Below the pieces are notes generated by a model, which worked only from the letters and a program-made list of their open reading frames with translations, ran no database searches and had not been told where the DNA came from. A stretch of DNA of 32,500 nt from Chrysochromulina tobinii. Taxonomy: Eukaryota > Haptophyta > Prymnesiales > Chrysochromulinaceae. The position numbers and the translations under genes are program-made. Below are positions 639 through 27,300 of this stretch, in pieces. The first letter of the stretch is position 1, and every line of letters begins with the position of its first letter. The stretch spans positions 1 to 32,500 of the forward strand of contig JWZX01003298.1 in the NCBI GenBank assembly GCA_001275005.1, written 5' to 3'.

Positions 639-888
639 GAGTGCCATCTGAGTGCCATCTGAGTGCCCTCTGAGTGCCTCTTGAGATTGCCATCTGAGTG
701 CCATCTTAGTGCCTCTGAGTGCCTCTTGAGATTGCCATCTGAATGCCATCTGAGTGCCCTCTGAGTGCCTCTTGAGATTGCCATCTGAGTGCCATCTGAG
801 TGCCCTCTGAGTGTCCCCGACCGGAGATTGAACTTGATTGCACTGGATTGCACTTGATTGCTCATCGCTTGATTGCCCTTGATGGCAG
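639..888 (+). repeat. 11-bp tandem array, probable repeat-built intron ending at AG 887-888
   Basis: From 639 to about 813 the plus strand consists of units of the type GAGTGCCATCT or GAGTGCCCTCT (11 bp). Every third or fourth unit is a 13-bp variant, GAGATTGCCATCT, so there is a higher-order period. From about 830 to 880 the units change to GATTGCACTTG-like forms, ending TTGATGGCAG before GTGCTCGCC at 889. The final AG followed by an open coiled-coil frame suggests an intron read on the plus strand. A donor could be CAAG/GTGACT near 583 or a GTG within the array; neither is certain. The unit resembles those in the introns at 3847-3930, 21560-21880 and 25956-26033. Confidence 0.75.
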
Positions 889-1382
889 GTGCTCGCCGAG
901 CGGCGCGCCGCGCTCAAGAGGGAGGAGGGCGCGCGCCGTCGTGGCGAGGCGCGGCTGGCGCAGGAGCTCGCGTTCCGAGATCGTCTCCTCGCCAATCTCG
1001 CCAATCTCGCGGTGGGCAAGCAGGAGGAGGAGCTCTCGAGGGCCGTTGCAATCCAGGGCCATCAAGTGCAATCAAGCGCAATCAAGGAGCTCTCAAGGGC
1101 CGTTGCAATCCAGGGCCATCCCGCCGGCGCTCCGTTCGGCGCTCGACACGACGCCTCCGAGGGGAAGGCATGGAGGGCGCTGATGGAAGGCATCGCGGTC
1201 AAGGTGCGCCGGCCGCTGATGACCCTCGTTGATGAGCCTCGCTGATGAGCCTGATTGCAACGCGTCGTGCTGAGCAGGCTGATGCCGAGGCGCGCCGCTA
1301 TCACGCGGAGCTGCTCGCCGCCCTCGCGGATGCAGAGAACGAGAGGGTGGTGCGGTGGTGCGCCTCAAAAACAAGGCGATGA
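889..1382 (+). CDS. C-terminal exons of an unidentified coiled-coil protein (possible relic)
   Basis: After the AG at 887-888 an open frame runs VLAERRAALKREEGARRR and on, a highly charged, heptad-like helix. It continues to LMTL at 1227. A GT at 1228 and an AG at 1276-1277 bound a 50-nt candidate intron containing two GCTGATGAGCCT-like units. Splicing keeps phase 0 and continues ADAEARRYHAELLAALADAE to a TGA at 1380-1382. The reading rests on coiled-coil composition and frame continuity; no family was recognised. The 5' part is not identified and would have to lie close to, or overlap, the start of the minus-strand AP2 gene. A 34-bp internal duplication (1030-1063 and 1087-1120) repeats ELSRAVAIQGH in the product. 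It could be a live gene end or a decaying fragment. Confidence 0.4.
1030..1120. repeat. 34-bp direct duplication flanking GCAATCAAG units
   Basis: Positions 1030-1063 and 1087-1120 are identical except for one base (CTCGAGG against CTCAAGG). The 23 bp between them is AAGTGCAATCAAGCGCAATC plus AAG, two 10-bp units. These are the reverse complement of the CTTGATTGC units found at 850-880. The arrangement looks like a small insertion flanked by a duplicated target, or a tandem duplication with later expansion of the unit. Confidence 0.85.
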
Positions 1383-1913
1383 GCGCCTTTGGGTAGCCAC
1401 CTCGTTGGTAGCCGTAGGGGGGGAGGCGGCCACATGGCACCGCCTTTGGGGCCACAAGGATGGGTTTGGCGTGGCCTGGAGACGCAAGAGGGGGCCGAGG
1501 CGACGAGTGAGCACACCTCCGTACAGTCGACAGTAACGCTAACGGCAGATGAGCTCAGTCGACAGTCGTCAGCCACGACAGCACTCGACTCTCGACTCGG
1601 GCTGGTGATACTGATAGAACGGAACCGAGCGTCGTAAATTTTGCTTTTTCTGTGCGGTGCGTCCGGTCGGTACAGTAGCACAGGTCCACCGTTCAGCTGT
1701 GAGCCGTCTCGTCAGAGCTGTGGCTAAACGACCGCACCACCGCTTCGCACTTGATGCGTTGAACACTACCGACGTACGAACTCCGTACGTACGGTACTAG
1801 ACAACTTCAACCGCCGCGTTCAAAGCATCAAGGCTGGGCCTGGGTTGGAAAACATGCGCCGGACGGTCGGCACCTCGTATGCTCTGCGGAACGATCACCA
1901 GCTTTAGCAACCG
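1383..1913. other. Intergenic stretch without a supported gene
   Basis: It lies between the end of the plus-strand coiled-coil fragment and the stop of the minus-strand AP2-RING gene, so it should hold both 3'UTRs. Open frames here are short and lack domain-like composition. A palindromic CGTACGTACG element lies near 1785-1795, and GTCGACAGT-type short repeats near 1525-1570. Neither has a known role. Confidence 0.6.
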
Positions 1914-4900
1914 TCATTTGCAAAGGCGCTGGGGACACGGCCCAGGGACGAGCGTGCGAGCCACCAGCTGCTCCCGTCTGCACGTTGGGCACTTTTTCTC
2001 GAGTCTCTCGATGGGCAGTGGGTCATTGTCTGATTGCCCGGAGCCTTGCAGCCACTGGCTCAAGCAGCGCTTGTGGTAGTAGTTGCCGCAGCAAGGAGTG
2101 TGCCCGCACGCGGCCTCGCCTCGAGAGCTTGCCGCGCTCAAGTCCAGGGCTTCAAGGCAGATGACGCAACGAGCTGCGCCAGGGTCATCGCCGCTCTCGG
2201 CCGTGAGCTGTGGCTGGAAGGGAATCGCTCCCTGCAAGACCACCTCTGCAAAGGCCACTGCAACTGCTAGTCGCTTGCGCGAGGCGTGCTCGGTCGTGGC
2301 AGCTGGTAACGACGAGGGCGAGCCTTGCTGCTTGCGCTGGTCCTCGCGCATCGATGTAAACGCCTCCGCCTGCTCGACTTCGCTTCGAGTGGGCGGGGCG
2401 GGGACTGGCGCCTGGCTTGGAGGACGGTGGGGGGGTCGGGGTCCCGGAATCAGCCAGCCGTCGACGAGGTCGCGAACGTGCCTCGCGTAGCACAAGGCCG
2501 CCTCCTCTGGTGTCGCGAAGGAGCCGAGGTAGTGCGTCCTGCCATTCTCCCAGGTCTCCGTCGTGTACCTTCCAGACCTGTTACACACGGCCTTGAAGCC
2601 CGTCTCACTGCTCGAGGACGGCACCAGCTCGAGCCCCTCGGCCGCTGCGGCCGCCCTGGCCTCGTCCGCTGTGAGCGGCCGCGGCCTTTCGACCCTCGCC
2701 TCAGCCGCCTCAGCAGCCGCTCGCTCCGCCCCAATATGCCTCGCGTAGCATAAGGCCGCCTCCTCCGGCGTCGCGAAGGTGCCGAGGTGGCGCATCTTGC
2801 CATTCTCGGTGGTGTGCGCTTTGTACTTGTAATAAGTCTTGGTCACGCCCTTGAAGCCTGACTCACAGGTCCACGACGGCACGAGCTCGAGCCCCTCGGC
2901 CGCAGCGACTGCCCTGACCTCATCGGCCTCGTCCGCCGTGAGCGGCTGCAAACCTTCGCCTCTCGCCACCGACGCCTCCGCCGCTGCTCGCTTCGCCCCA
3001 GCGTGCCTCGCGTAGCACAAAGCCGCCTCCTCCGGCGTCGCAAAAAAGCCGAGGTGGCGCGCCTTGCCATTCTCCTTGATCCGCCCCATGTACTTGCCAT
3101 GATGCTTGCACACGCCCTTAAAGCCCGTCTCACCGTATGACGACAGCACCAGCTCGAGCCCCTCAGCCGCCGCGGCCGCCCTGGCCTCGTCTGCCGTCAG
3201 CGGCTGCGGCAGTGTGACCCTCACCTCAGCCGCCTGAGCCGCCGCTCGCTCCGCCCCAATGTGCCTCGCGTAGCACAAGGCCGCCTCCTCCGGTGTCGTG
3301 AAGCTGCCCAGGTGACGCTGCATACCCCTCTCCAGAACCCGCGCCTTGTACATGCCATACTTCTTGGTCACGCCCCTGAAACCCGTCTCACTGCTCGAGG
3401 ACGGCACCAGCACGAGCCCCTCGGCCGCCGCGGCCACCCTGGCCTCGTCCGCTGTGAGCGGCCGCGGCCTTTTGCCCCTTGCCTCCGCTGCCTCTGCCAC
3501 CGCTCGCTCCGCCCCAGCGTGCCTCGCGTAGCACAAGGCCGCCTCCTCTGGGGTCGCGAAGGTGCCCAGGTGGCGCAAATTGCCTTTTTCCTCAATCCGC
3601 GCCTGGTACTTGCCATAATGCATGACCACGCCCTTGAAGCCCGACTCGCCGCTCGACGATGGCAATAGCTCGAGCCCCTCGGCTGCCGCGGCTACCCTGG
3701 CCTCATCCGGCGTGAGCTGCTGCGGTCCTTCGACCCTGGCATGTGCCGCCTCTGCCATCGATCGCTCCGCCCCGATGTACCTCGCATAGCGTAAGGCCGC
3801 CTCCTCCGGCGTCGCGAAGGTGCCCAGGTGGCGCTGGCCATTCTCCCTGATGGGCCGAGAGTTGGCATACTCGCTGTCATCAGAGGTCATCAGAGGTCAT
3901 CAGAGGTCATCAGAGGCCATCAGGCTGCACCTGATATGGGCCGAGTACTTGCCACGATGCTTGGTCACTCCTTTGAAGCCCGTCTCATTGCTCGAGGACG
4001 GCACCAGGTCGAGGCCCTCGGCCGCCGCCGCCGCCCTGGCCTCGTCCGCCGTGAGCGGCCTTGGGCCTTCGCCCCTCGCCTGCGCCGCCTCCGCCGCCGC
4101 TCGCTCCGCCCCGATGTACCTTGCGTAGCACAAGGCCGCCTCCTCCGGCGTCGAGAACACGCCGAGGTAGCGATGCTTGCCTTTCTCCTTGATGTGAGCC
4201 TTGTACCTGCCAGAGTGCTTGCGCACGCCCTTGAAGCCCGTCTCACCGCTCGAGGATGGCACTAGCTCGAGGCCCTCGGCCGCCGCGGCCGCCCTGGCCT
4301 CATCCGCCGTGAGCGGCTGCGGTCCTTCGCCCCTCGCCTCCGCCGCCTCCGCCGCCGCTCGCTCCGCCCCAGCGTGCCTCGCGTAGCACAAGGCTGCCTC
4401 CTCTGGCGTCGCAAACATTCCGAGGTTGCGCAGCGGGCCATTCTCCGTGATGCTTGCATTGTACTTGCTACCGTTCCTTGTCACGCCCCTAAACCCCGTC
4501 TCACTGCTCGAGGACGGCACCAGCTCGAGCCTTTCAGTCGCGGCCGCCGCCCTGGCCTCATCCGCTGTGAGTGGCCGCGGACCTTCGCCCCTTGCCTCCG
4601 CCGCCTCCGCCGCCGCTCGCTCCGCCCCAATGCGCCTCGCGTAACACAAGGCCGCCTCCTCTGGGGTCGCGAAGGAGCCGACGTAACGCCGCTTGCCATT
4701 CTCCCAGATCTGCCCCTGATACCTGCCATAATGCTCGGCCACGCCCTTGAAGCCCGTCTCATTGCTCGAGGACGGCACCAGCTCGAGCCCCTCGGCCGCC
4801 GCGGCCGCCCTGGCCTCGTCCGCCGTGAGCGGCCTTGGGCCTTCGCCCCTCGCCTCGGCCGACCCTGCCGCCGCTCGCTTCGCCCCAATGTGCCTCGCAT

Positions 4901-5606
4901 AGCACAATGCCGCCTCTTCCGACGTCGCGAAGGTGCCGAGGTAGCGCTGCGTGCCATTCTCCCTGATGTTTGCGATGTACTTGCTACCGTTCCTTGTTAC
5001 GCCCCTGAAGCCCGTCTCACTATATGACGACGGCACCAGCTCGAGCCCCTCGGCCGCAGCTGCCGCCCTGGCCTCATCCGGCGTGAGTGGCCGCGGCACT
5101 GGGACCCTCGCCTCGGCCGCCTCTGCCGCCGCTCGCTCCGCCCCAGCGCGCCGCGCGTAGGACAAGGCCGCCTCTTCCGGCGTCGCGAAGGTGCCGAGGT
5201 GGATCTGCATGCCATTCTCGGTGATCTGAGCCTTGTACTTGCCTTGATTCATCCGCACGCCCCTGAAGCCTATTTCACCGATTGCAGACGGCACCAGCTC
5301 GAGCCCCTCGGCCGCCGCGGCCGCCCTGGCCTCGTCTGCCGTGAGCGGCCGCGGCGCTGCGACCCTCGCCTCGGCCGCCTCAGCCGCCGCTCGCCCCGCC
5401 CCAATGTGCCTCGCATAGCACAAGGCCGCCTCCTCCGGCGATGGAAACTTGCCGAGGTGGAGCTTCATTCCATTCTCTCGGATCTGCGCCTCGTAGTACT
5501 TGCCATGTTTCTTGCACACGCCCTTGAATCCGGTCTCATTGCTCGACGAGGGCACCAGCTCGAGCCCCTCGGCCGCCGCGGCCGCCCTGACTTCCTCCGG
5601 TAGCAT
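1914..5606 (-). CDS. Twelve-AP2-domain protein with C-terminal RING finger, two exons
   Basis: Exon 1 is 5606-3931 and exon 2 is 3846-1914, giving about 1,202 residues. Twelve AP2-like units of about 86 residues start near residue 26. Each has GF(K/R)GV, a basic strand such as KYKAHI, ENGK-RHLGTF, PEEAALCYAR and an Ala-rich linker ending GLELVPSS. The seventh is split by the intron and becomes continuous only after splicing (KYSAHIR/ENGQRHLG). The last about 85 residues form a RING: C1119-VI-C1122, C1139-G-H1141, H1150-KR-C1153, C1178-PT-C1181, with extra residues including two Cys between H1141 and H1150. RING domains recruit ubiquitin-conjugating enzymes and AP2 domains bind DNA. A sequence-anchored E3 ligase is therefore plausible but inferred. 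An upstream TTG at 5624 is open in frame, but the ATG at 5606 is conserved with the paralogue at 465. Confidence 0.88.
2470..5590. repeat. About 258-bp tandem coding repeat array (AP2 units)
   Basis: The AP2-RING gene is made of about twelve direct DNA repeats of near 258 bp. Each is recognisable on the plus strand by GCGTAGCACAAGGCCGCCTC followed about 80-100 bp later by CACGCCC(T/C)TGAAGCC. The repeats are similar at DNA level, so unequal crossing-over and assembly collapse or expansion are both likely. The array is interrupted once, by the intron at 3847-3930. The same unit recurs at 1-465. Confidence 0.85.
3847..3930 (-). other. 84-nt GT-AG intron built of CTCTGATGAC repeats
   Basis: On the reverse strand the donor is ATCAG/GTGCAGCC and the acceptor is GGCCCATCAG/GGAGAAT. 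The core contains four exact copies of CTCTGATGAC (10 bp). Unspliced, the frame hits TGA TGA within the array. Spliced, the seventh AP2 domain reads HIRENGQRHLGTF, matching its neighbours exactly. The intron end repeats the end of exon 1: CTCGGCCCATCAGG in the intron against CTCGGCCCATATCAGG at the exon border. Confidence 0.88.
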
Positions 5607-6139
5607 CGTGTCGCGACAACGCAAAGGATGATGCGCCCTTGCTCGAGAGACGAGCGCTGCGAGCGTCCGTTACTCGAAAACTTTTCTAAAAAAAGGTCAG
5701 CAAATCCGCTCTGAAAGTGTGGAGTCCTGTCTGTTACGCGATTCTGTACACTCTGCCATTTCGATCCAGAACAACGTCTGAGCGCGGTCCTCGAGTGTAT
5801 AGGTTCCCAATACGGCTCTAGTTTCCGGCGTTGAGTTGGCAGTTGTTATTTAGGGTACGAAGGCTTCCTTCTCCTACACCGACCCGGTCCGGTGTCCCCT
5901 GGTGTGCGCTTTGCACGCTCATCGACGAACAAATACAGAAATACCTTGTCGTGCTTCGGCGTGCACCGACCTGCGACCACCCGGACACTCCGCTCTCCGG
6001 ACGGCGGGCGGGGAGCGTGCTCGGTGCTGTGCGCTCTGGCTCTCTCCATGATACCGTTCTGCGCACTGCTCTCATGCGACCATCCATTCGATCCATTCAC
6101 GTTCTCCAATCACACTCTCGCAATGCCCATTCATCCAGA
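5607..6139. other. Promoter side of AP2-RING gene and 3' side of RCC1 gene
   Basis: This 533-bp gap separates two minus-strand genes. It should hold the AP2-RING promoter and 5'UTR and the RCC1 gene 3'UTR. It is less GC-rich than its neighbours, with an A-run (CTAAAAAAAGG near 5685-5695). No clear TATA element or gene was seen. The open frames present show no domain. Confidence 0.55.
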
Positions 6140-9100
6140 TCAATTGCCTAATTTGGGTGCAAGGAGTAGCCAGCCAGCTCGCCACTCATCAAGATCGATC
6201 ACGCCGTTACCATCAGTATCGAGAGAGGTCACCATGTCCTCGATCACCTCTGTGGGTACGTCGCCTCGGCCGCGCAGGAAGTCGCCCATCGCAGCCAAAG
6301 GGATCGTGTCACTTCCTGCGGCGACCATGTTGAACAGGGAATCTGCCACGATGGTGTCGTAGTGCGCCGTCGGCAGCGGCGCCTTGGGCGACGTTGGCAG
6401 CGGAGCCTCCTGTGGAACCTCCTTTGCTGTTGCTTCGACCTGTGCTGCTGCTTCAACCTGTGCTACTGCTGCAGCGATGGCGGAGCGTACGAGCCGAATG
6501 GCATCCGCCATCATCGCATCCGCATCACGAGCCGCCTGCACCGCGGCTGCCGCTTCAACGGCCGCCTCGACGGCCGCCGCGGCCACCGCCGCGCCTTGGG
6601 CGAGGGCCTGCTGTGAACACAGCTGGGCCGCCCTTGACTTCCTCTCCGCGCGCCCGCGCATCAGGGCCTGCATCAACGCCGCCGCATGCGCCTCCACACG
6701 CAGCTGCTTGGCCGCTGCGGATCGGCCGGTGTGCCCACGGTAGGAGGCCTGCATGATCGTGGCGGCCGCGCGGCGCGCCTTGAGCTCGTTGCGATAGCCG
6801 TTGGCGACGAAGCTCGAGCGCACGCGCGCCTGGATGGCAATCGTGGCCTTCTCGGCCGCTTCTTGCTCCGCCTTCGCCGCCGCCTCATCCTCCTCCGATG
6901 CCGCCGGTGAGGCTTTGGACGCCACGATTGCCTGCGCTGACTCAACCTCGGGCTCGACCTCGGGCAATACCTCGGGCTCGACCTTCGGCATGACCTTCGG
7001 CTCGACGGCAGCGATGCGCGCGTGCCTGCCAGACCTGCCATCCTGTTGTTGCCCTCGCTGCTCGGCAAGCTCGGAGCTCAACTCATCAATGAGCTTCTGT
7101 AGCTCGTGCGGATCGTGCGGGACCACGACAGCACGATCCGAGCCGCGAGCCGATGCCGCCACCGCGAGCCTTGACGTGCGAGATCGAGCGCCGCCCCGAG
7201 CGTGTGGGCCCTCCTTGGATGCGCCCGGTACGGCGCCGCCGATCGGAGGCAAACGAGTAGACGATTCCAAATTTGGTCGTGCAGCTGAGGAGCCGCGTGC
7301 TGCGGCCCGGCGGATACCCTTCCGCGTCAGCTCTGGGGCCGAGGTGGAGACGGACAGCGCTGACTGCCTTGTATGAGCGACTGCCACAGCCAGAGTTGGC
7401 ACCTTCTCCTCCTCGCCCGCCTCGCCCAGCGCACCCGCCTCGCCAACTGAGGCCACCTTGCCGGTCATCAGGAATGTGTTGAGCAAAGGATGGTGCGCAA
7501 GGCGTACAAGGAGCCACCGGGCGCCCGAGCCCCCCTCAGCCGCCAGCGAGTCGTCGCTGCCGTCCCCCTCCGTCGCCTCCGAGACCTCTGCCGGCTCCAT
7601 CTCTGTCTCGACTCGCCGGGTGCGACCTCCTTTGGCGGCGCCTCTGTTGGCGCCCCTGCCGCCCGATGGCACTCCTTCCACAACGGCCGTTGGCGCCCAG
7701 CTGGAACCGGAGGCTGTTTGCGCAGTGCGCTCGCTGGCAGGGGGGATCAGCGGCAGAGAGCCACGTGAACCAGTCGGCGGAGCGCCCGACGTCGCAAACT
7801 CCTCTCCTTCCCACGTCGGCACTTTCGAAGGCACCTTTGTCGGCACCGTTGTCGGCGGCTCATCATCCCAAGGATTCTCAATAGGATTCTCGAGCGCGAC
7901 TCTTCGTCGTCGATTCGAGGCGGCAGGATTCGAGGCGGCAGCGTCGTGCGTAGCGGCGGCTGTGCCCTCGCCCGGCACCTCCGGACTCGCACCAACAATG
8001 CCGCCCGCACCGACGGGCGCACTCACCGGCGCGCCAACGGCTGCAAAGGCCATCCCGGCGACGGCCCCCTCGGCGGCCGTCTTGCGTCCTCCTGCCTTGC
8101 GATGAGGCGCCGACGGCTCCGGAGGCGGTTGCACGGCCGCCAAGCGCGCGAGCGCGCGCGGCGACCGATCGAAGATGTCGCGTAGCAGCCGCGTGACCTT
8201 TGACTGTGTCGGGATAGGCTTTAGAGGCGGTAGTACAAGGGCCGACCTGGATGAGGCGAGGGTGCCGCTGCCGGGGGCTGAGGGGCCCACGATCACATCC
8301 GACGGCGACGGCAACGCGCTGGCTGTTGGGCCTGGCACCAAGACCGATGCCAAGAGCAGCGACGTGGCGGTGGTGGCGGTGACGTGTGCGCGTGATGGGG
8401 ACGCTATTCCAGAAGCAGCTGCCGATGCCGACGCCACCTCGCTGTCAATGTTGTCATCGGCAACCGATGTCGCGCCACCGCTCCCCACCGCCACCGCCGC
8501 GTGCGCATGTGCGGCGCCATCGGTGTGTACATGTCGCGGCTCGAGCTCCCCGCGCTGCAGCCGCGCATTCAAGCGCTGGGCTTCCAGCTGCCTTGCGCGC
8601 AGCTTGTCGCGCGCCTCCCGATCTTTTTCGAGCTCAGCCGAGATCGAGAATGACGAAGCCGGTGAGTCCTTGAGCCAAATGGCGGAGCCCGAGGCGGCGA
8701 GCAGCTGCTTACGCCTCTCGACCGACGCAAGCGAGCGCACCGGCGGCATGATCGCCGCTGCGTGGTGCGAGCCTGCGGCCACGAGAAGGGCGGGTCCGCC
8801 GAGGGCTACTGGTACAGCCTCCGCCATCGAGGGTACATGGGGGCCCTGACCGCACTGGCCGTCGCCATTGTCGCCCATGCAAAGCACCATACCGCCTAGC
8901 GTCTGCACCACCGTGTAGCTCTCACCGCACCCGATCCAGACCACGGGACGTGCCGGTAGGCACAGCGATGGGCAGCGGAGCGGCGTGCTCACGGCGCGTA
9001 CGGCGCTCGCTCCACCGCCGAGGCCGAGCTGTCCGTGACCGTTCGCACCCCATACGAAGACGTCGGAGCAAGCGCCACGCACTGCGAGGGCCGCGGAGTG

Positions 9101-9992: not shown

Positions 9993-10089
9993 GGCCAAGT
10001 GGCAAACCCCAGCCGCTCAGCTGCGTGCGCGTCTTGGTGTTGGTCGAACCGCATGAAACGCGAGAAAAGCGACCTGTGAACTTCCTGTG

Positions 10090-10133
10090 AACAGGGTGAC
10101 ATAAAGAGAACTTTGTAACAGGGTGACATAAAG
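10090..10133. repeat. 17-bp direct repeat upstream of RCC1 gene
   Basis: AACAGGGTGACATAAAG occurs at 10090-10106 and again at 10117-10133, 27 bp apart. It lies about 100 bp upstream of the RCC1-gene start on the reverse strand and just past the stop of the ankyrin gene. It could be a regulatory element or a remnant of a local duplication. Confidence 0.75.
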
Positions 10134-10184
10134 CCCGGTGTAATGATATGGCTTTTATGGGACACCAACCATGAAAAGAGGTGT

Positions 10185-11288: not shown

Positions 11289-11451
11289 GAAAATGCAAGT
11301 TTGAGCGAATCACAGAAGGTGATAAGGGACGAGGTGTTGGGGGTGCCTCGGCAGAGTGGGATCTTCGAACTGTAGTACTCCGAAACTGCGGAAAGTAACG
11401 CATTCCCTGTGAATGAGCTGACCTTCACGAAGGACGTGCATCTTTCCGATC

Positions 11452-17045: not shown

Positions 17046-17201
17046 AATTATTTTTGGTGGCCACGTGTGAACGTTAACACGACAGACGCGACAACCGGTG
17101 CTACGGTACTGTTACTGTGTGTGTATAAAGTGTGAGAGCGGTTGGCCTGGGGACCTCAAGGAACCACGATTTGCTCCAAGTGGATGCTTCTTCTCGTGTG
17201 A
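17046..17201. promoter_or_regulatory. Divergent promoter of DA1-like and GT90 genes
   Basis: Only 156 bp separate the two start codons. On the plus strand TATAAA lies at 17124-17129, 73 bp before the GT90 ATG, at a plausible TATA position. No matching element was seen on the other strand. Confidence 0.5.
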
Positions 17202-18578: not shown

Positions 18579-18955
18579 TGTGTGACAACAAAACCCGGGG
18601 TAAGAGGATTTGTTAGAAAGACCCGCCGACTTGGCCGTTTTTGAGGTTAATCTCGGCGCCTCCGGTTCGCGAGAATTCCTACTTGTGAAGAAGAATCGGT
18701 CGGATGCAGCGATCCTTCTCCTCCCTCTCGGCGGCGAAGCCGATCCATTGCGCTCTCGACTCGGGCGCGTGCCCGGGCTCTCCTGTGTCGAGCTATGCGG
18801 CCTGCTCGGTCACAGCCAGCTTTCAGATGAAGTGACGTCACCATGTGCGATCGAACCTCCGCACCGCCTGTTTAAGCCGGACGCCTGCGACGACGTCGCG
18901 TCGTTCTTGACGCCCGCACGCCCGACTCGACACCGCTGCTGATCCCGCATGTGCC
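18579..18955. other. Region between GT90 gene and Cys-rich frame
   Basis: It contains the perfect palindrome TGACGTCA (18833-18840), a CRE/bZIP-type site. A plus-strand frame without ATG (18610-18942, including AAILLLPLGGEA) could hold an upstream exon of the Cys-rich protein. No clear splice pairing was found, so no gene is called. Confidence 0.45.
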
Positions 18956-19393
18956 GTGCTCGTGTGCAGCTGCTCCACCGTCAAGACGGAGATCGAGGCG
19001 CGCATCGCCCGCGGCTATGATCGCAAGTCGCACCCTGGCCACTACGATCTGATGGTCTCGGAGGAGCAGTGCACCAAGGCTAGCCGCACGACGGGCGCCG
19101 GTGCCAAGCCAGGCCCGTACACGGACCTTATCGGATTCGATTACGCCGAGGTCTCGGGCCATCCCACGCAAATGTGCCGCGTGGTCGCGTGCAGCGAGAG
19201 CCAAGTATCGTCCAAGTGCGACTTCTCGACCAACTTTTGCAACATGTATAACCTGTTCTGCCCGGCATCCGACGGCTGCACGCCCGTGACCGTCGACATT
19301 GGCAAGAACCTCACGTGGACCGACGGCGCCTCCTGCAACCACGGCTTCCAGTGCGGCGGCCAGGAGGCGGACATCACGCAGTGCACGCGGTGA
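18956..19393 (+). CDS. Cysteine-rich, probably extracellular protein, 3' exon only
   Basis: The open frame reads CSCSTVKTEIEARIARGYD through KCDFSTNFCNMYNLFCPASD and GASCNHGFQCGGQEADITQC before TGA at 19391-19393. It has about thirteen Cys in 145 codons, NLT and similar glycosylation-like sites, and strong G/C third-position bias on this strand. There is no usable ATG at its 5' end (the frame begins after a TGA at 18909, with GTG at 18956). A splice acceptor GTGTGCAG near 18968 is likely, and the signal peptide should be in an earlier exon. The spaced Cys pattern suggests disulphide-bonded secreted domains. No family was recognised. Confidence 0.5.
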   Translation: MLVCSCSTVKTEIEARIARGYDRKSHPGHYDLMVSEEQCTKASRTTGAGAKPGPYTDLIGFDYAEVSGHPTQMCRVVACSESQVSSKCDFSTNFCNMYNLFCPASDGCTPVTVDIGKNLTWTDGASCNHGFQCGGQEADITQCTR

Positions 19394-19797
19394 GAGCTCA
19401 ACAGTCCGAATGACCAAATCTCTGAGTCAGGGTCGTCGGAGGGTGTCCCAAGGCATCATCAGTTACACCGGTGTCCATCACGTGTATGCCCAAGCGCATA
19501 GAGATCTGTCTTACTTTGAATTGACCTCGTGTGCCGGTCAACTTTTCCTCCTTGGCACATTGCCTTGGGCCCTTGGCATTTAAACCTTGCAAAAACCTTG
19601 GGTTCCTTGGTAGGCTTTCGTGCTGGGCCCCCAAAATTTTCATTTGTCGTGGGGCCTCTCGGCAAAAAGCGTCGGACGCTTTTCGATTCACGAAACAGAG
19701 TCAGCGCGTTCACAGCCAAGGAAACCCCTTCCCGCGAGCTGCACCCGCGAGCCCTCTTCAAGTCGATGGGCACGAACGACTCTGCACGGAAGTGATC
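19394..19797 (+). other. Upstream region of the RanBP2-zinc-finger gene, with a short uORF
   Basis: An in-frame upstream extension exists but starts only at GTG 19531. A 9-codon upstream ORF (ATG 19766, stop 19793-19795) ends two bases before the main ATG at 19798, so it could lower translation of the main frame. A/T-rich repeats of the type CCTTGG occur near 19555-19610. No other gene is seen. Confidence 0.5.
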
Positions 19798-20736
19798 ATG
19801 CTGACGATCCTCATGAAGCAGTCGCAGCTGCTCGAGAAGGAACTCTTCGAGGATCGGGCACAGATGGAGGTGTTGAAACGTAGGCAGGCAGAGCATGACG
19901 CGGTAGTCAAGGAAAAGGATGAGAAGATAGCCGAGCTCGAGGAGGAGCTTAGCAAGCGAAGGCCGCTGAACCAGAGAGTCTTGTGCATTGCTTGCGGTAG
20001 AGTCGCGGGCGAGGTGGAGGAGGAGGAAGCGGTGCCGGAGCCAAAGAAGGAGCCGGAGATCGACACCGCCGAGATACTCGCCAAGCTCGAGCTGCTCAAG
20101 AAAAAGCTCATGTCGACAGAGACGAAGCTCACCTCGGCAGAGCTCCAAAAGGCGATACTCGAGCTGCAGCTCGAGACGAGGACGAGCAAGATCCGTCGCG
20201 AGCTCACGCGCGACCTCGAGAACATCCAGGCCAGGGCACGCGAGGCGCTCGCCACCGTCGCGAAGACGAAGGAGCAGGCGCAGGCGGCGGAGCGCAAGCT
20301 CAGCGACGAGATCGCAACCAAAGGTGTCCAGATTAGGGAGCTACAGGACGGCCTCAAGCGGCGCGACGAGCAGATCGAGTTCTTGATGCAGGTGCACGAC
20401 GCCTCCAAGGAGTGTGAATGGGTACCGGTCTTGGGTGTGGTCTCGGGCGCTCCCAGTCATGATCCCAGCGCCTCGCCAGCAGGCACGAGCGTCGTACCGG
20501 GCGCTGTTCGGGGCGCCGGTGGCTCACCCTATGCGGCAGCGCGACACATCAACAGCGGACTGGGCAGCGGCGGCGGCGGCGCTGGTCGCAACGGTGCAGT
20601 GGGCGCTGCTGTTGCGGAGCTGACCTTTGGCCAAGCCGTCGCCGCCCTCGGACCTTGGCAATGTCGCGTGTGTACACTGCGTAACGAGGCGGCGAGGACG
20701 CTGTGCGAGGCGTGCGGCAGCGACCGCTTTCAGTGA
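19798..20736 (+). CDS. Coiled-coil protein with C-terminal RanBP2-type zinc finger
   Basis: The 312-residue product starts MLTILMKQSQLLEKELF. Residues 8-55 and about 90-215 form long charged heptads (KEKDEKIAELEEELSKR; AELQKAILELQLETRTSK). A lone CxxC (C63, C66; LCIACG) lies between them. A Gly/Ser/Pro-rich linker follows (about 225-280). The last 28 residues are GPWQCRVCTLRNEAARTLCE and ACGSDRFQ, with W287, C289, C292, N296, C303 and C306. That is the RanBP2/NZF consensus W-x-C-x2-C-x3-N-x6-C-x2-C. Such fingers bind ubiquitin or single-stranded RNA. The residues after the first Cys pair (TLRN) fit the ubiquitin-binding NZF type better, but this is inferred. Coiled coils suggest dimerisation. 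Confidence 0.82.
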   Translation: MLTILMKQSQLLEKELFEDRAQMEVLKRRQAEHDAVVKEKDEKIAELEEELSKRRPLNQRVLCIACGRVAGEVEEEEAVPEPKKEPEIDTAEILAKLELLKKKLMSTETKLTSAELQKAILELQLETRTSKIRRELTRDLENIQARAREALATVAKTKEQAQAAERKLSDEIATKGVQIRELQDGLKRRDEQIEFLMQVHDASKECEWVPVLGVVSGAPSHDPSASPAGTSVVPGAVRGAGGSPYAAARHINSGLGSGGGGAGRNGAVGAAVAELTFGQAVAALGPWQCRVCTLRNEAARTLCEACGSDRFQ

Positions 20737-21319
20737 CCCGGTGCCCTGTGCTTGTCGCGCGGCCTCACCGCCTCATCTTGGAGAGCGTTTGAATGTGATC
20801 GGAACGCACCGCACTTTGGCAGACCGCTCGCGTTTCATCGTGGCCGGGAGCGCAAATGGCCTGAAGCCTTTTAGAACAAGCTGAACGAAGCCTAAATAGC
20901 TGAACCGTAGTCATTAGACGCGTCCACGTTAGAATTTTCCTTTCACTCGTAAGTTTTCTTTAAAACGTATGAAGATTGTTCAATGAAGAACACCCTACAT
21001 GTACAACGTCTTAGGACTAGCGGCAAGTACCGTACATATCGATCATCACGAGATATCCGGATGTAGTACCATGTACGAAAGCGAGGAGGGCGAGACTGGT
21101 ATCCATGGTGGTATCGCGTGGGGGTAGGCTGACATGGAGCCAGCGCTGGCATCGCTGAGGCCACCGACCGGACACGCTGCCTCGTCGTGCCTGCCGTGTC
21201 GACAGGACCGCACCGGAGTCGCGTGCACAAATAAAAGTCAAATTGGTGCCGTCACAGGCCGCTCTCCTGTCTCCCCACAGGCCGCAACGCCGGCGTGGCA
21301 CCATCCAGACGACGTAGTT
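20737..21319. other. Convergent 3' region, 583 bp
   Basis: It lies between the RanBP2-finger gene (plus) and the 3' end of the helical-protein gene (minus). AATAAA occurs at about 21230 (CACAAATAAAAGTC) on the plus strand, some 490 bp past the stop. The middle is A/T-richer (TTCTTTAAAACG near 20955). Reverse-strand frames here lack domain character. No gene is called. Confidence 0.5.
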
Positions 21320-22568
21320 TCAGAGCGTATCCTCGAGGTCATCAATTTCCCTCTGGATGGCATCGATCTCTTCGTCCGTCTTGCTGACGCCTTCTGCCTG
21401 CCACGCGCTCAGTATGCCGTCCGCCAAAGCAACCTCGCCGCTCGCCTCGCCGCTCCACTTGCCGCTCCCCGCGCCGCCTTTGCCGCCCTCGGGGCCTCCC
21501 TTTTTGAGCCTGCCTTGCAGCGCCATCTCCGCAGCGAGATTCTTCGGTAAAGCGAGCACCTGTGCGGAGCGGTGTGTAAGCACGAAGGTCAAACTAGGTA
21601 CGGAGCTATCGTACAAGTCGTGATGGCATCTGATGGCATTTGATTGCCCTCTGATGGCATTTGATGATATGTGACTTGGCACGTAGCCGCGGCCATCTCA
21701 TCAGAGGGCAATCAAATGCCATCAGAAGCCATCAGAGGGTAATCAAATGCCATCAGAGGGTAATCAAATGCCATCAGCGGCCCTTTAGAGAGCTTTCAGA
21801 GGGGTGCGGGCACTTCGACCTCCTCGATGGCATCGGGTTAGGGTTAGCATGCAATCGGGTTCGGGCGCAGGCACTCCGACCTCCTCGATGGCATCGGGAT
21901 CGATGCCGAGCGCCTCGGCCTTCTTCTTCTGCTTCGTGAGCTCGAGCAGCTTCTTCATACGCACGAGCTTCGCCACGCGCTGCGCACGCTCCGCCTCCGC
22001 GCGGATGGCCGCGTACAGATTACCCATCACACCTTCGCGCTCGCGCTCGACGTCGCTGCCCGCACGTCGAAAGCCAGCCCGCGCCTCCTCAAGGAGTTCG
22101 AGTGACCGGCTGAAACGGTCTGCGCTCGCCTTGTCGCCGAACACGGACACCGATTCCATCAGTGCCTTGTCGCCGCGCGCCTTCGCCGCCGCACGCAGCT
22201 CGAGCTCCTCTTTGGTTGGTGGTGGCGGACGTGTCGCAGTCTTCCTCACGCCGGGGACGAGAGCGGCGTCGACGCGCGCTGCGACCATTGCGAGCAGCTG
22301 CTGCTGTTCCTCCGTGGCGCCGCCGGCCGCGTCATACGCATCGCGCGTCTCCACGATCAGCATGCGCGCGCGCTCTGCCTGCTTCTGTTTGAGCGCATCC
22401 AAAGCTGCCAGCAGCAGAGCATCAGGCGATCCGCGAGCGTCGCCTGGACCACTGTCAGCGCACATCGTGCACATATCAGCACGGCATGCTACCACCGAAC
22501 ACGTCCAGCAGTTGCACCAGCTGCATGCTGGCTGGCAGCTCAGCAGGATCGCCGCCACAGCCACGCAT
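21320..22568 (-). CDS. Helical, charged protein of unknown function, three exons
   Basis: The preferred model has exon 1 at 22568-22493 (MRGCGGDPAELPASMQLVQL), exon 2 at 22443-21881 and exon 3 at 21559-21320, together 292 residues. Splicing is GGTG/GTAGCA to GTCCAG/GCGAC, then GAGGAG/GTCGGA to GCACAG/GTGCTC. The joins read DVFGG-DARGSPDALLLAAL and DPDAIEE-VLALPKNLAAEM. The protein is mostly alpha-helical: ALDALKQKQAERARMLIVE, LLEEARAGFRRAGSDVERER, AKLVRMKKLLELTKQKKKAE. It ends with an acidic helix, TDEEIDAIQREIDDLEDTL. An alternative start at 22582 without the first intron would give a signal-like but unusually Cys-rich N-terminus; this is judged less likely. No family was recognised. Confidence 0.7.
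21560..21880 (-). other. 321-nt repeat-built intron with long hairpin
   Basis: The donor is GAGGAG/GTCGGAGTG and the acceptor is CTCCGCACAG/GTGCTCGC, preceded by a pyrimidine-rich tract. The body is a tandem array of CTGATGGCATT and TGATTACCCTC or TGATTGCCCTC units in sense orientation. It then continues as an inverted array, so 21622-21656 pairs with 21699-21733. The 5' end contains a second copy of the exon/donor border. Confidence 0.85.
21622..21733. repeat. Inverted repeat, 35-bp arms with 42-bp loop
   Basis: 21622-21656 (GATGGCATCTGATGGCATTT and on) is the reverse complement of 21699-21733 (CATCAGAGGGCAATCAAATG and on), with one mismatch. Both arms are made of the 10-11 bp intron units in opposite orientation. 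In the transcript this would form a near-perfect stem. Confidence 0.9.
21803..21898. repeat. 35-bp direct duplication spanning the exon 2 donor, with TTAGGG-like spacer
   Basis: 21803-21837 and 21864-21898 share GACCTCCTCGATGGCATCGG and flanking bases, with three mismatches and an offset of 61 bp. The right copy holds the real exon end and donor. The left copy lies inside the intron. The 26-bp spacer begins with TTAGGGTTAG. Confidence 0.85.
22444..22492 (-). other. 49-nt candidate intron
   Basis: GGTG/GTAGCATG to GTGGTCCAG/GCGACG. It contains GCTGAT and GCTGAC as branch-like sequences. Removal joins two helical frames (DVFGG-DARGS) and replaces a Cys-rich, non-domain-like reading. The size resembles the 50-nt candidate at 1228-1277. 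Confidence 0.6.
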
Positions 22569-22987
22569 TTCGTCGTGCGCATATTCACGGCGTCGTCGTG
22601 AGCGCGTCGTATTCCCGCTCAGATACGGCCCCCCAAAAGGGCACTTCTGGTGCCATTTCTGTGCGCAATCTACTAGAGAGTTCACACCCACGCAATCGCC
22701 TTTTCCTTCTCGCTAGCAACAACACTCATCCCGTCGGGACTCCACGGAACCCAAATGCAAATCCTCAGCGCCAAGCGCATGGCCAAGCGCTGGCGTTGGG
22801 GTTGAGGGTGTCGTGTGGTTTTGAGATTCGGGCAGCGGCCAAGCCCTCTGCCCGTCTGCCGTCTGCCCTCTGTGAAAGGGAGTGGGAGGGAGTGAAGGGA
22901 CGAGAGTGGGAAGAGCCACAGAGAGTGCTGCAATGCCGCACAAGCTATTTGTCTTCCGCCCCTGTGCGTATGAAAGGCCTGGTGTCT
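22569..22987. other. Promoter side of the helical-protein gene and 3' side of the oxygenase gene
   Basis: This stretch lies between two minus-strand genes. It holds short direct repeats (CCAAGCGCATGGCCAAGCGC near 22775, and GTCTGCCGTCTGCCCTCTG near 22855). No supported gene or clear promoter element was seen. Confidence 0.5.
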
Positions 22988-24247
22988 CTAGTAGCTTGGT
23001 GGTGCCTTGGAAGGATCTGCGAGGTTGATCTTTCGGAGCACGCTGAGCACCTGCTCGCCCGCGGTCATCGGTGGGTAGAGGCGCAGCGCCTCATCGGTCG
23101 CAAAGTCGCCAAGGGGCCGCAGTTCTTTTGTGGACGCGACGTGGGCGAAGAGGGTCGATGAGATGCGCCAGGGGGGGCGGCCAGCCGCTGCCCGCCGCTC
23201 GGCCACCTCGACCGTCTCCGGCAGCACAACGACCTCGTGCATGCCCGCAATCACCTGGCCGCCCGTCAGCCGCTCCATTTGCATGCCAGCCTGCACGAGC
23301 AGGCAGCCGTTGGGGATGGCCACACGCCGCTTGGTACCGTCTCGCAGCCAAACGTGCAGGCCGGGGTAGCGCGACTTGCCGTGGATCGTGAGCAGGTTGA
23401 GGTCGTTGTGGAATCCTGCGAGGATCGTATTGACCTCGTGGTGCTTGCCCAGGTCCGAGCCCGTCGGTGCGAGCAGGTGCGGCCCGTGCTCCATCAGAGA
23501 GGTGATCGCGCTCGAGGGCAGTCCAAACCCCACAGCCGCCATCTCGGCGCACGTGCTCACCGACGCGAGCATCAGATGGCCCCACCGGTCCATCGTCTCT
23601 CCCCAGCGCGGGAAGGCGGCCGGGTGCACGGGCGCCGCATTCAGGTCCTCGTAGCCGGACACTTCCTTCGGACGCTCGCCAATTCGCCAGAAGAAGCGCC
23701 ATTTGGGGTCGGGACCGGAGATCGGCAGCGGCTTGTGCTCGGACGGCATACCCTCGATGCGCTCGATGCACTCGGCGTCGGTCTTGCAGATCGGGATCTC
23801 GACCATGCTGGGCGTCGCGCCTACCTGGTAATGGAACTCCTTGCGCACGTCGGCCATCTTGAGCTCGTCGGGCTGGGCAAAGTAGTCCTCCATCAGGTCG
23901 AGGAAGGCGACCTCGTCCGCCTCGGACACGCGCGAGTCGCGGAGCAGCGCAATGCCCGTCGCCTTGAGCGACTCGGCGAGCGCCTTGCATGCCGTCTGTG
24001 CCTCGACGGACGACGGGTCGTTGAGCCAGCTCGACACGTCGATGACAGGCGCGATGGTGGAGACGGGCGGCAGCTTCATGGGCTCTTCGGGCGGCACGGC
24101 CATCTTGGCGCTTGACTTGGACGCCTCCATGGCAAGCAAAATGTCGCGGATGCCCAGGATGGGATCGGCGGGGCGGGTGCGCAGCACCTCGCACACCGCC
24201 GCGGCCAAAGCCTCCTGCACGCCATGCGCCGCGATGTATTCGGACAT
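22988..24247 (-). CDS. DPY30-like docking segment fused to 2-oxoglutarate/Fe(II) oxygenase (isopenicillin N synthase-like)
   Basis: The product is 419 residues from ATG 24247. Residues 3-40 (EYIAAHGVQEALAAAVCEVL, then RPADPILGIRDILL) match the DPY30/RIIa dimerisation-docking pattern with its RP-x-DP-I signature. Residues 65-400 form an isopenicillin N synthase-type oxygenase: N-terminal VIDVSSWL and ATGIALLRDS, then the jelly-roll iron site H280-N-D282 (FHNDLN) and distal H337 (AGMHEVV). R361-I-S363 binds 2-oxoglutarate. SRYPGLHVWLRDG is the family strand before NGCLLVQAG. The enzyme class couples 2-oxoglutarate decarboxylation to hydroxylation or ring chemistry; the substrate is unknown. DPY30/RIIa domains bind amphipathic helices, often in cilia or chromatin complexes, so targeting of the oxygenase to such a complex is inferred. 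Confidence 0.88.
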   Translation of the reverse strand: MSEYIAAHGVQEALAAAVCEVLRTRPADPILGIRDILLAMEASKSSAKMAVPPEEPMKLPPVSTIAPVIDVSSWLNDPSSVEAQTACKALAESLKATGIALLRDSRVSEADEVAFLDLMEDYFAQPDELKMADVRKEFHYQVGATPSMVEIPICKTDAECIERIEGMPSEHKPLPISGPDPKWRFFWRIGERPKEVSGYEDLNAAPVHPAAFPRWGETMDRWGHLMLASVSTCAEMAAVGFGLPSSAITSLMEHGPHLLAPTGSDLGKHHEVNTILAGFHNDLNLLTIHGKSRYPGLHVWLRDGTKRRVAIPNGCLLVQAGMQMERLTGGQVIAGMHEVVVLPETVEVAERRAAAGRPPWRISSTLFAHVASTKELRPLGDFATDEALRLYPPMTAGEQVLSVLRKINLADPSKAPPSY

Positions 24248-24383
24248 CGAGGGCGGCGCTACCGGTACCGGTACACAGGGGGCGTTAAAGTGTGAAGCTT
24301 CGGTGTCGGTGTGAATTCATACTTAATGATAATAAGATCGTGCACACCCCGTTTTCGTGCTCGGTCTTCATTCACATGACGCA

Positions 24384-27300
24384 TCAACGTCCATTCACAG
24401 AGGACCGCAACATGACGGCGAGGACATCAAGCACAATCCACCCCCACAGCAAGGAGAATCCTAGCGCCTCGCCCCAGGCATCCGCCAGCGTCGCGTCGTC
24501 GCCGAATCGCGATTGACCTATCCACAGGGACAAGACGCCGCAGGCAAAGAGGATCGTTGTGGCGACAACCCAGGGAAAGACCCTCCAGAAGCGCACGGAG
24601 CTCGACCAGACGCGTGCCCACGCGCGCCACCCATGCCAACCTCGACCGCACCTCGAGCGTCGCTCAGGTGCGCGGGCGGCGCCCCCGATGATGACCTCGG
24701 CCTCTGGCGATCGTCGTGGCCACCGGGGAGAGATGCACAGAGTCGAACGGAGGCCATTGTAAGTCAGCAGGCAACAGACTGCCCCCAGCAACGACGCACA
24801 AGCGCATAGAGACTGGAGCCAAGACGGCACGACCAGCCATCGACGCCACCGAGGATGTGCTCGAGATGAGGCAGCAGGCTTCGCTGAGGTGGGCTCGGCC
24901 CCACCGTCGCCTGCGCCCGCACTCATCAAGGCGCCCAGGAGGGCACTCCGTGTTTCGTCAGACACGCTGCCGAGGAATTCGATGAGGTGACACACGTCCT
25001 CTTCGTGAGCGTAGTCCCGCCAGTCAAAGAACGCTCGGGAGATGGCACAGATGGTCTGAAAGGACGAGGCCGTCGGGTCGGGCTCGTCGATGAGCACAAG
25101 CTGTGTCGACGGCACATGCGTGCCTGCGATCCCTTGTGCACGGATCGGAGCCTGATGGTGCTCACGCTTGTGAGGACCTATGCGCGCATGGCCCAGCCAA
25201 CCAGCTGTTGGTGGTGAGGGCGGGGGAGAGAGCGGCGGGGCAGAGGGTGGCGGGGTAGAGGTCAGCGCGGCAGAGGGCGGCGGTTGCGCGGCGGCGAGGG
25301 CAGCTGAAGGTGGTCGCCGTTTCAAAGGTGGAATTTCGTCAACCGTGTCCGCGCGGCCATCGTTGCGGCCATCCCCGCGGCTCGAACGCCCGCGCGCCCG
25401 CGATTGCAGACGCGTCGCCGCTGCCTCCTTCTCGTCCATCCCCGCGCCACCCTCATCCGCCTGATTGCCACCCTCATCCGCCTGATTGCCACCCTCATCC
25501 GCCTGATTTGGGGCGTCATCCGCCTGATTTGGGGCGTCAACCGCCTGATTGCCACCCTCATCCGCCTGATTTGGGGCGGCGGTCCTCGCATCTCTGCTAC
25601 TGGCAAGCCGATGCGCGTCGGCAAAGTGTTGCGCGTCGGCAAAGTGCTGCACGTTGGCAAGGCAGCCGCGCGCAAACGGATCAAGTCTCGGGTCGTTGAG
25701 CTCGATGATCGCCTGCAGCCGCTCGAGCCCACCACAGCGCTCTAGCTGCTCGACACACGTGATCTCGGTGCACAGGTTCTGAAGGGCACCTAGGGCGTAC
25801 ACGAGGGTCAGCCGGTCCTGATCATCAGCGAAGAGGTGCGGCAACACGAGGCTGAAGGCGCCCGCCGCCCTGAGTAGCGCCTTCGTCTCCTCTGCGTGCG
25901 GGTCGACAGCCTCGCATGCAAGGTCGGCCACGAGCATGAGGGCCATCCGATGCACCTGATGAAGGAGGCAATCGTGAGTCATCAGTGATCATCAGAGGTC
26001 ATCAGCCACGAGCATGAGGGCCATTCGATGCACCTCGGCCGAGGGGCTTCCAAGCAGCCCGACGATGAGCTCGACGCCGCCCGTGGCGCGCAGGCCCTCG
26101 CACAGCGCGATCGCATGGTCGCCGTAGCTGCCGTTGGCAAGCAGAGCGAGCTGGTGCAGCGCCTTGCCCTTGTCCGCCTCGCTGCTGCTGCTCAGCCGAA
26201 GAACTCCGACGAGACCCATCAGCTCCCGCGCGGGCGTCAGCACGGGGGGTAGCTCACGCTTGTGAGGACCTATGCGCGCATGGCCCAGCCAACCAGCTGT
26301 TGATGGTGAGGGCGGGAGAGAGAGCGGCGGGGCAGAGGGTGGCGGGGTAGAGGGCAGCGCGGCAGAGGGCGGCGGTTGCGCGGCGGCGAGGGCAGCTGAA
26401 GGTGGTCGCCGTTTCAAAGTCGCGAGCTGCTCGAGTGCGGACCATGGTCGATTGCGGACCAAAGACGCACGAATTCGTGCCGACCAGGGTCGCACCGCAG
26501 CCGCAGTGGTCTCAGGCTCTAGGGGGGTTCGTGGTCGAGAAGTGGGGGGGCTGTTCCGTGAAGGGAAGGTAGCCGGAGGATTGAGAGGGCTGGGCGTCTC
26601 GGACTCGCTCAGCCCCACAGGGTGCAGCTCCTCGATCTGGGGGTAGCTCGATCTGGGTGTAGCTCGATCTGGGTGTAGCTCCTCGATCTGGCCTGCGTCC
26701 TCTTGATCTTGCGACTCTTCGAGCCGCTTGAGAGGAGTGCGAGGGACGCCCCCTCCACCATCTCCATCCGCATGCAATGGCATCATGCCTGATGCCGATG
26801 CCTGGTCCTTCGCCCAAGCCACTGACCTGGCAGCATCCTGCTTGATCAACTGCGTTGGCGCTTGATCGACGACGAGCGATGCGTGCTCCCGTTCGGCCTC
26901 CTCAACATGTACTAAGGCAAGCGGCCTTGCCTGATCAGGATACCGTTCGGCCTCCTCCCGTACGGCCTGCAGCCGCGTGATGCCGAGCATCCGAGGGCGC
27001 ATGGCGAGCAGTGCCGCACGGACGTGCTCGACAAGCAGGTCCTCGACGACCTGCCGCCAATCGGAGAGCGCCGCGAGCACACTGGCGTGGTCAAAGGCCA
27101 GGTGCAGCGCGGCCGTTGCCCTCAGCTGCGAACCCTTGTGCTTCTCCACGCTGTCCATGACTGCTACAGCCGCCATGTGGCTGATCCGCCTCTCTCGCCC
27201 AAAGAGCTCATCGAGGACTCTTGCCATCAGCAGCGCAATGGACGCTGAGATGAGCCCAGAGAGCATCGTTTGGAGCGTCGTGATGCTTTCGTGTGTGAGA

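Follow-up and report, generated by a model that had tools for sequence, protein, structure and literature searches.

Predicted array introns in the window

Four introns or candidate introns in unrelated genes of the window (the whole 32,500-nt stretch of DNA analysed here) had been noted to consist largely of short tandem units that each resemble a branch site, which raises the question of whether a mobile intron-generating element or expansion of the units gave rise to them. Tandem Repeats Finder (TRF) detects an array at all four places. Three of the four (3847-3930, 21560-21880 and 25956-26033) are supported as introns by excision. Intron status of the fourth (639-888) is not supported: no plus-strand coding label lies there and the downstream frame has no Pfam match. 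The features of the window are as follows.

25956..26033, minus strand: 78-bp intron predicted for an Arm-repeat-like gene; once it is excised, the open frame reads AE|VHRMALMLVADLACEA
26005..26034, minus strand: upstream copy of a 30-bp target duplication, comprising the last exon base and the first 29 intron bases; one mismatch between copies
25957..26004, minus strand: inserted stretch, comprising the array (TRF 25974-26005, period 10) and the 3' end CTTCATCA
25927..25956, minus strand: downstream duplication copy, comprising the G of the 3' splice site and the exon start
3847..3930, minus strand: 84-bp intron predicted within a single repeat of an AP2-repeat gene; excision restores the repeat
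3876..3923, minus strand: array of CTCTGATGAC, 4.8 copies, period 10 (TRF)
3931..3945, minus strand: exon side CTCGGCCCATATCAG of a possible duplication with intron-end partner CTCGGCCCATCAG at 3847-3859 (by eye)
21560..21880, minus strand: predicted 321-bp intron; the frame is open to the stop after excision
21711..21776, minus strand: sense array of CTGATGGCATT-type units, period 10 (TRF)
21621..21666, plus strand: antisense array of CTGATGGCATT-type units, period 10, forming an inverted repeat with 21711-21776
21801..21898, minus strand: direct duplication with GAG|GT inside, about 37 bp long (21861-21898 and 21801-21837; by eye)
639..813, plus strand: array of TGAGTGCCATC, period 11, 15.5 copies (TRF)
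826..861, plus strand: array of GATTGCACTT, period 10 (TRF)

Excision of 3847-3930 yields GKYSAHI|RENGQRHLG, which resembles the sister AP2 repeats, and the adjoining AP2 repeats are without this intron. The same 30-bp duplication as in the 25956-26033 intron is present in a paralogous locus (L019). Pfam backing for the window's own introns is weak, with AP2 across the 3847-3930 junction at 23.8 bits (cut-off 33.3), ARM_ARMC5 across the 25956-26033 junction at 19.2 bits (cut-off 79.9), both below their cut-offs, and no Pfam family found across the 21560-21880 junction. Likeness of the units to branch sites holds for those with CTGAT but not for the unit of 639-813, which reads CTGAG. A telomere-like CTAACCCTAACCC sits between the copies 21801-21837 and 21861-21898, as judged by eye.

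Branch-site arrays in a wider genome sample

We identified 197 TRF arrays with 9-12 bp units in 226,951 bp of genome sequence. Each half of this sample included ten 10-kb stretches, all chosen for carrying the seed 18-mer; by comparison with these, an unselected 40 kb held just three CTRAY arrays. CTRAY occurred on exactly one strand in 103 of the 197 arrays, compared with about 14 expected from shuffled units, an excess more marked than originally claimed. The other 94 arrays were without CTRAY, and many of these were GC-rich units of coding type. The commonest period was 10 bp (99 TRF rows with at least 3 copies, overlapping rows kept), with 14, 23 and 47 such rows for periods of 9, 11 and 12 bp, respectively, and array copy number ranged from 1.9 to 33.8. 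The excess of 10-bp periods is compatible with a possible relation of unit length to one helical turn.

Relative to genes predicted with the arrays masked, 97 CTRAY arrays were sense, two antisense and four neither (n = 103); leaving out arrays that hold the seed 18-mer gave 70, two and three, respectively (n = 75). Sixty-two of 63 neighbouring pairs of CTRAY arrays shared a strand. The sense bias is strong in the wider sample, but the sense orientation that the initial annotation had assigned to every array is wrong for 21621-21666 inside 21560-21880, which reads antisense. Genes were predicted with a home-made finder trained on the very stretches analysed, and its intron ends disagree with our own junctions at all three supported window introns. 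A stop trinucleotide is present in every CTRAY unit on the sense strand (103/103), because the motif itself entails it, and in 12/103 on the antisense strand. CTRAY-bearing arrays of 10-12 bp units occupy predicted introns in sense orientation, and the genes concerned encode unrelated domain families.

Common 3' end and flanking direct duplications

A common form of the array element ends TGATTGCCTCCCTCATCA|G and has 973 exact copies in the genome, of which 590 then read GGT; the GGT form with up to three mismatches has 3,972 copies. The reversed sequence, used as the control, gave 0 matches every time. This 18-bp 3' end is common to unrelated genes, and its fixed character is partly an effect of ascertainment, since its copies were searched for. 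The last unit of an array stands 16 nt ahead of the intron end.

A long direct target duplication lies beside 40 of the 103 CTRAY arrays, compared with 3 of 1030 mispaired controls. In our reading of these 40 cases, the duplication contains AG|GT in some, and copy 2 is preceded by TCA or CAG in just eight. A scan anchored on copies ending TGATTGCCTCCCTCATCA detected a duplication of 12-56 bp (median 24 bp) in 47 of 82 testable copies and in 6 of 820 controls, leaving 35 testable copies with no anchored duplication. Twenty-nine of the 47 duplications start with GGT. One period, equal to the predicted intron, has a median of 78 bp, and the non-exonic insert between the duplication copies has a median of 51 bp. 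The copies are still near-identical (16 of 35 duplications without mismatch, 3.4% mismatch on average), which suggests recent gain. Duplication length and insert length are anticorrelated (r = -0.385), with a sum as narrow in 11 of 5000 permutations; for this reason a minimum intron length seems to us, short of proof, a better basis of the narrow sum than an intrinsic period fixed near 78 bp.

Two further scans were less informative. An unanchored duplication scan (60/100 versus 35/400 at a score of at least 18) was superseded by the anchored one because the shared end of the element inflates scores. An in-register scan of the finder's own introns, limited by wrong intron ends, gave 4/48 array introns and 4/72 others at a score of at least 10 (controls 0/960 and 0/1440). 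The direct duplications and the common 3' end are additions to what the initial annotation had observed.

Effect of excision on coding sequence

Ten of 30 segments were picked by eye for a Pfam check, and a conserved domain spans the junction after excision in seven of them and in three it does not. The PRP16 alignment is gapless over two excision junctions, and the P0145 protein (85% identity) is continuous through both sites in a comparison at the protein level. Excision joins coding frames at 23 of 35 insertions and at 15 of the 18 with a positive upstream coding score; for 17 of the 35, the coding score of the upstream 150 nt is not positive. When a single duplication period is removed, reading frames are restored, as are conserved protein cores in those cases that were tested. 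By computation, the insertions are predicted to be removable by splicing with the coding sequence left intact.

Probable origin of the array introns

Similar sequence forms predicted introns in many unrelated genes, as in introners in the broad sense. We consider that the arrays probably represent an introner-like family of intron-generating insertions, with predicted splicing, in a haptophyte-like nuclear genome. Both origins proposed at the outset may have a part in this: the shared 3' end and the flanking duplications point to an inserting family, and unit expansion fits as well because copy number varies so widely. Both processes may act.

Plain minisatellite expansion would have old introns whose own branch site grew in 10-bp steps, with no insertion, and whose flanks came from a later tandem duplication of intron end and exon start. 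The wide variation in copy number is in line with this, as are 12 of the 47 anchored duplications, which lie behind an existing ATCA end; five of them show the identity expected of tandem amplification, at least 82% over the 40 nt before. The other seven nested cases have preceding sequence just 40-70% identical, 35 of the 47 duplications are not behind an existing end, and the 18-bp 3' end recurs exactly across unrelated genes, which together make this origin unlikely. We give slightly less credence to a standard introner derived from a DNA transposon of the cut-and-paste type, with inverted ends and short duplications of fixed length. In its favour, the insertions form a family, are removable, have duplicated targets and co-opt 5' splice sites like published introners as far as described in PMC9860276, and our earliest examples appeared to have TGATGA/TCATCA ends. 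This pair, the sole terminal inverted repeat tested, was not enriched among 35 inserts and was discarded: TGATGA stands at the 5' end of 8/35, with about 7/35 estimated from its density in the inserts (30 in 1057 positions). Only 3 of 595 insert pairs have their first 8 nt in common, and the duplications are long and variable compared with the 3-9 bp described there for characterised families.

Had an exon segment holding AGGT simply been duplicated in tandem, this would explain exon sequence doubled at both ends and AG|GT inside the duplication in some cases, but the copies are separated by a non-exonic insert that carries the shared array and 3' end. This origin is refuted wherever unrelated genes share the insert, the usual case here, and is very improbable overall. 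It is just as improbable that coding or intergenic repeats were misread as introns. The 94 arrays without CTRAY and the crudeness of the gene finder leave some room for such an error; against it stand the strand bias of 97 to 2, the stop trinucleotides of the sense units (a consequence of the motif) and their scarcity in antisense, and the rejoining of conserved domains, including PRP16, by excision. Viral carriage of the arrays was also considered and set aside, two array patterns having no match in viral_contigs, a collection that may omit records of this genome.

For the introner-like family, we propose that array-bearing DNA would enter a staggered break and that fill-in of the stagger would duplicate the target. 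In cases where G|GT opens the duplicated target, the first target copy would serve as the 5' splice site; otherwise the duplication would span the junction or lie upstream of it. Branch sites and a pyrimidine tract would come with the insert, which would often bring the 3' splice site too, so that, together with the 5' site of the target, the spliceosome would excise exactly one period and leave the mRNA unchanged. Antisense or too-short insertions would stay unspliced and be lost. The duplicated flanks would permit later tandem amplification, and the 10-bp units could slip in number afterwards. Neither duplication length nor 5' end is constant, and this variability is more in keeping with target-primed reverse transcription, or with copying during break repair, than with a cut-and-paste transposase. 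A search for enzymes that covered reverse transcriptases gave 26 RVT_1 matches, 22 of them above the cut-off, and these showed no link to the insertions. More tentatively, and with less than even confidence, we suggest a self-propagating intron family without a cut-and-paste transposase, in which array-bearing tails would be copied, via RNA or break repair, into staggered exon breaks, the tandem branch-site cassette would immediately allow splicing at nearly any duplicated G|GT target, and a lower limit of about 65-70 nt on intron length would balance duplication length against repeat number.

Comparison with known intron gains

In the available text of Gozashti et al. 2022 (PMC9860276), introners form families whose members resemble one another and occur in many genes, with a duplicated target that gives the 5' or 3' splice site and an mRNA that is usually unchanged. 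The introns described here are like them in forming families across genes, in their target duplications and in drawing a splice site from the duplicated target, but differ in duplication length (12-56 bp, theirs 3-9 bp) and in that the insert usually carries the 3' site. The paper also reports a family from Chrysochromulina sp., with an example duplication of 4 bp carrying its 5' site; our comparison rests on this description. The word 'tandem' is absent from the main text of that paper. Introner elements of Amoebophrya, as far as given in PMC7789003, likewise comprise many family-like introns with terminal repeats in a protist host, but have 8-20 nt inverted and 3-5 nt direct repeats, whereas the direct repeats found here are long and inverted ends of that kind were not found.

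Intron gains in Daphnia have been tied to double-strand-break repair, with direct repeats suggesting repair of staggered breaks (PMC3488318, available text). They share with our introns the direct repeats at intron ends (here 40/103 versus 3/1030), but those repeats are short and the new introns are without obvious source, whereas one many-copy family with shared units and a shared 3' end is present here. Intron gain via tandem genomic duplication in potato RdRp, according to the available text of PMC4974935, is similar in that duplicated gene sequence led to a new intron, and differs from our case, in which an array-bearing insert separates the copies. No report of tandem branch-site arrays in introns was found in the accessible open-licence literature, including PMC9860276, PMC12730881, PMC7789003, PMC3488318 and PMC12768974.

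Implications for intron gain

Among introners, those described best resemble DNA transposons with short duplications, and the bulk origin of introns is an open question. If our reading is correct, such a family, present in hundreds to thousands of copies and combining long variable duplications with a repeated branch-site cassette, would point to another route. Three ingredients of a new intron would then be separate: the target would give the 5' site, the insert the branch site, and both together the length. Because the near-identical duplications suggest recent gain, presence or absence between strains should be directly testable. Many introns appear to have been born by the insertion of repeated splicing signals and the copying of part of the gene on either side, which points to intron gain in bulk.

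Branch-site-like arrays and their orientation

Tandem Repeats Finder confirmed arrays of short units at all four places that the initial annotation had proposed as introns, of which the one at 639–888 is not supported as an intron.

639–888, plus strand: array
3847–3930, minus strand: predicted array intron, flanking duplication identified by eye only
21560–21880, minus strand: predicted array intron, flanking 37-bp duplication identified by eye only
25956–26033, minus strand: predicted array intron, 30-bp flanking duplication with one mismatch
1031–1120: 33-bp direct repeat with one mismatch (1031–1063 and 1088–1120) around 24 bp of antisense-reading units; possibly an unspliced insertion of the array kind, where no gene is supported
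22991–24247, minus strand: uninterrupted 2OG-oxygenase-like frame
about 25190–25345 and 26270–26430: direct repeat of about 150 bp (CCACCTTCAGCTGCCCTCGCC...), seen by eye, on either side of the array intron in an Arm-repeat-like gene

In the genome (53.15 Mb, 2,253 contigs), CTGATGACCTCTGATGAC, which consists of two joined units, occurred 1,009 + 987 times and its backwards control once. Arrays (non-overlapping, period 9–12, score ≥50) were collected from 20 stretches of about 10 kb, on contigs chosen for this 18-mer, and from the window, a total of 226,951 bp once two overlapping stretches were merged. The branch-site consensus CTRAY was present on exactly one strand in 103 of 197 arrays versus about 14 with shuffled units, and in 75 of 168 versus 10.8 in shuffles after removal of the 29 arrays with the seed 18-mer. 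The repeat-unit arrays are real, and more strongly so than was claimed. Period 10 is the commonest (99 Tandem Repeats Finder rows with at least three copies, versus 14 for period 9, 23 for period 11, and 47 for period 12). An unselected sample of 40 kb, made up of 20 stretches that were each 2 kb long (score limit 40), contained three CTRAY arrays, two sense, none antisense, and one outside predicted genes, as well as element-like CTCATCA ends in two stretches. Because this sample is much sparser, the array-dense stretches are atypical of the genome.

A periodic coding model was trained on long frames with arrays masked, and an exon–intron model then parsed both strands; this gene model is crude, merges genes, and disagrees with manual reading on the intron ends of all three supported window introns. 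In the masked parse, 97 of the 103 CTRAY arrays were sense in a predicted gene (75 in introns, 22 read through as exon because of the masking), two were antisense, and four neither; without seed arrays the counts were 70, two, and three (n = 75). The unmasked parse gave 87 sense introns, three exons, one antisense intron, and 12 neither. Strands agreed in 62 of 63 pairs of neighboring arrays up to 1.5 kb apart. The initial claim that every array reads in sense does not hold, as antisense arrays exist. Because antisense arrays would supply no CTRAY, the strand bias could be due entirely to selection.

Target duplications and a common 3' end

Exon sequence is repeated at both ends of the inspected introns, as at locus L012 of the same genome (gag/GTGGCGGAGTCGTTGTT-GATGACC...CCTCATCAG/gtggcggagtcgttgtt). 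In a boundary-free test, a flanking direct repeat with a score of at least 12 was detected at 40 of 103 CTRAY arrays versus 3 of 1030 mispaired pairs, and at 11 of 93 other arrays versus 3 of 930. By manual reading, the downstream copy immediately follows TCA or CAG in eight of the 40 duplications; the remaining 32 span the splice site, sit elsewhere relative to it, or have an unclear site. A paralogous locus (L019, near 7864, minus strand) has the same array intron and 30-bp duplication as 25956–26033, its two copies being identical.

Many inspected introns terminate in TCATCAG. The genome contains 973 exact copies of TGATTGCCTCCCTCATCA (control, 0), 590 of them followed by GGT, and the 21-mer including GGT is present 3,972 times with up to three mismatches (control, 0). 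Small windows were taken at the first 100 further listed TGATTGCCTCCCTCATCA sites, minus one at a contig end, and all DNA examined contained 100 distinct elements (63 followed by GGT), of which 82 had enough unique flank to be testable. Of these, 47 carried an anchored duplication, beginning where the element ends, versus 6 of 820 mispaired, and 35 carried none. Anchored duplications are 12–56 bp long (median 24) and start with GGT in 29 of 47 cases; the inserts have a median of 51 bp and the predicted introns, duplication plus insert, of 78 bp (quartiles 73–96). Longer duplications tend to accompany shorter inserts (r = -0.385; 11 of 5000 permutations equally narrow), which a minimum intron length would produce. 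Period lengths show no bias toward multiples of three (18, 12, and 17). The upstream copy lies behind an existing ATCA in 12 of 47 elements; judged by the preceding 40 nt, five of these nested cases (at least 82% identity) may resemble tandem amplification and seven (40–70%) further insertion at the same boundary. At locus L025 (2521–2590 and 6620–6683), whole element ends are themselves repeated in tandem, as short higher-order arrays with periods of 21–23 bp containing CATCAGG.

Splicing signals and homology

Interpreted by the usual features of splice signals, the fixed 3' end would comprise a branch site (CTGAT, with the A lying 16 nt before the intron end), a pyrimidine-rich tract, and the 3' splice site. 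The 35 non-nested inserts contain 97 sense CTRAY, up to 27 of them belonging to the fixed 3' end itself, versus five antisense; four inserts have none. When one period is excised, the best coding frames join up in 23 of 35 cases. The upstream coding score is positive in 18 of the 35, and frames join in 15 of those; it is not positive in the other 17. The joined sequence reads open in 17 of 35 cases versus four unspliced. The insert would thus supply what the exon lacks, the duplicated target supplying the predicted 5' splice site.

In seven of 10 segments, picked by eye from 30 spliced segments, a Pfam domain extends across the junction (DEAD helicase, with two introns in one segment, ANAPC8, leucine-rich repeats, SNF2, ion channel, Tudor-knot, and HEAT); in three no Pfam domain did so. 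The clearest case is the splicing helicase PRP16 (L017), whose core is interrupted by two array introns, 159 and 162 bp long. Its spliced protein aligns gap-free over both intron sites with human PRP16 (PDB 5yzg). An environmental relative (P0145, 85% identical) is continuous through both sites, and if it is a raw DNA translation, both introns are absent in its source. Among the best relatives of a single window gene are a 98% identical environmental-assembly match (79 member sequences), mmetsp transcriptome entries, and Prymnesium parvum (66% identity), with chytrid fungi next (about 55%); the source is read as a Prymnesium- or Chrysochromulina-type haptophyte. The 98% identical environmental relative is that of the 2OG-oxygenase-like frame, so that close strains are present in public assemblies.

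Mechanism and relation to introners

Characterized introners have duplications of 3–9 bp, and in an introner survey 72 of 177 assessable families have inverted ends (PMC9860276). The array insertions, in contrast, have long, variable duplications; the one inverted-end pair tested was found in 8 of 35 inserts, no more often than expected, and 5' ends are rarely common to inserts (3 of 595 pairs). Neither of the two DNA-transposon features tested, a short fixed duplication and inverted ends (one pair), was found. This pattern, we infer, fits cut-and-paste less well than it fits either target-primed reverse transcription or the copying of sequence into a staggered break. Reverse transcriptases are present in the genome (26 RVT_1 matches, 22 above the cut-off). 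A telomere-like CTAACCCTAACCC at 21838–21860, between the copies of the 37-bp duplication in the 21560–21880 intron, would suit break repair as a single case, this CCCTAACCC being the only one in 260,636 bp examined. The array insertions behave like an introner, and we file the family as a variant of the introner kind.
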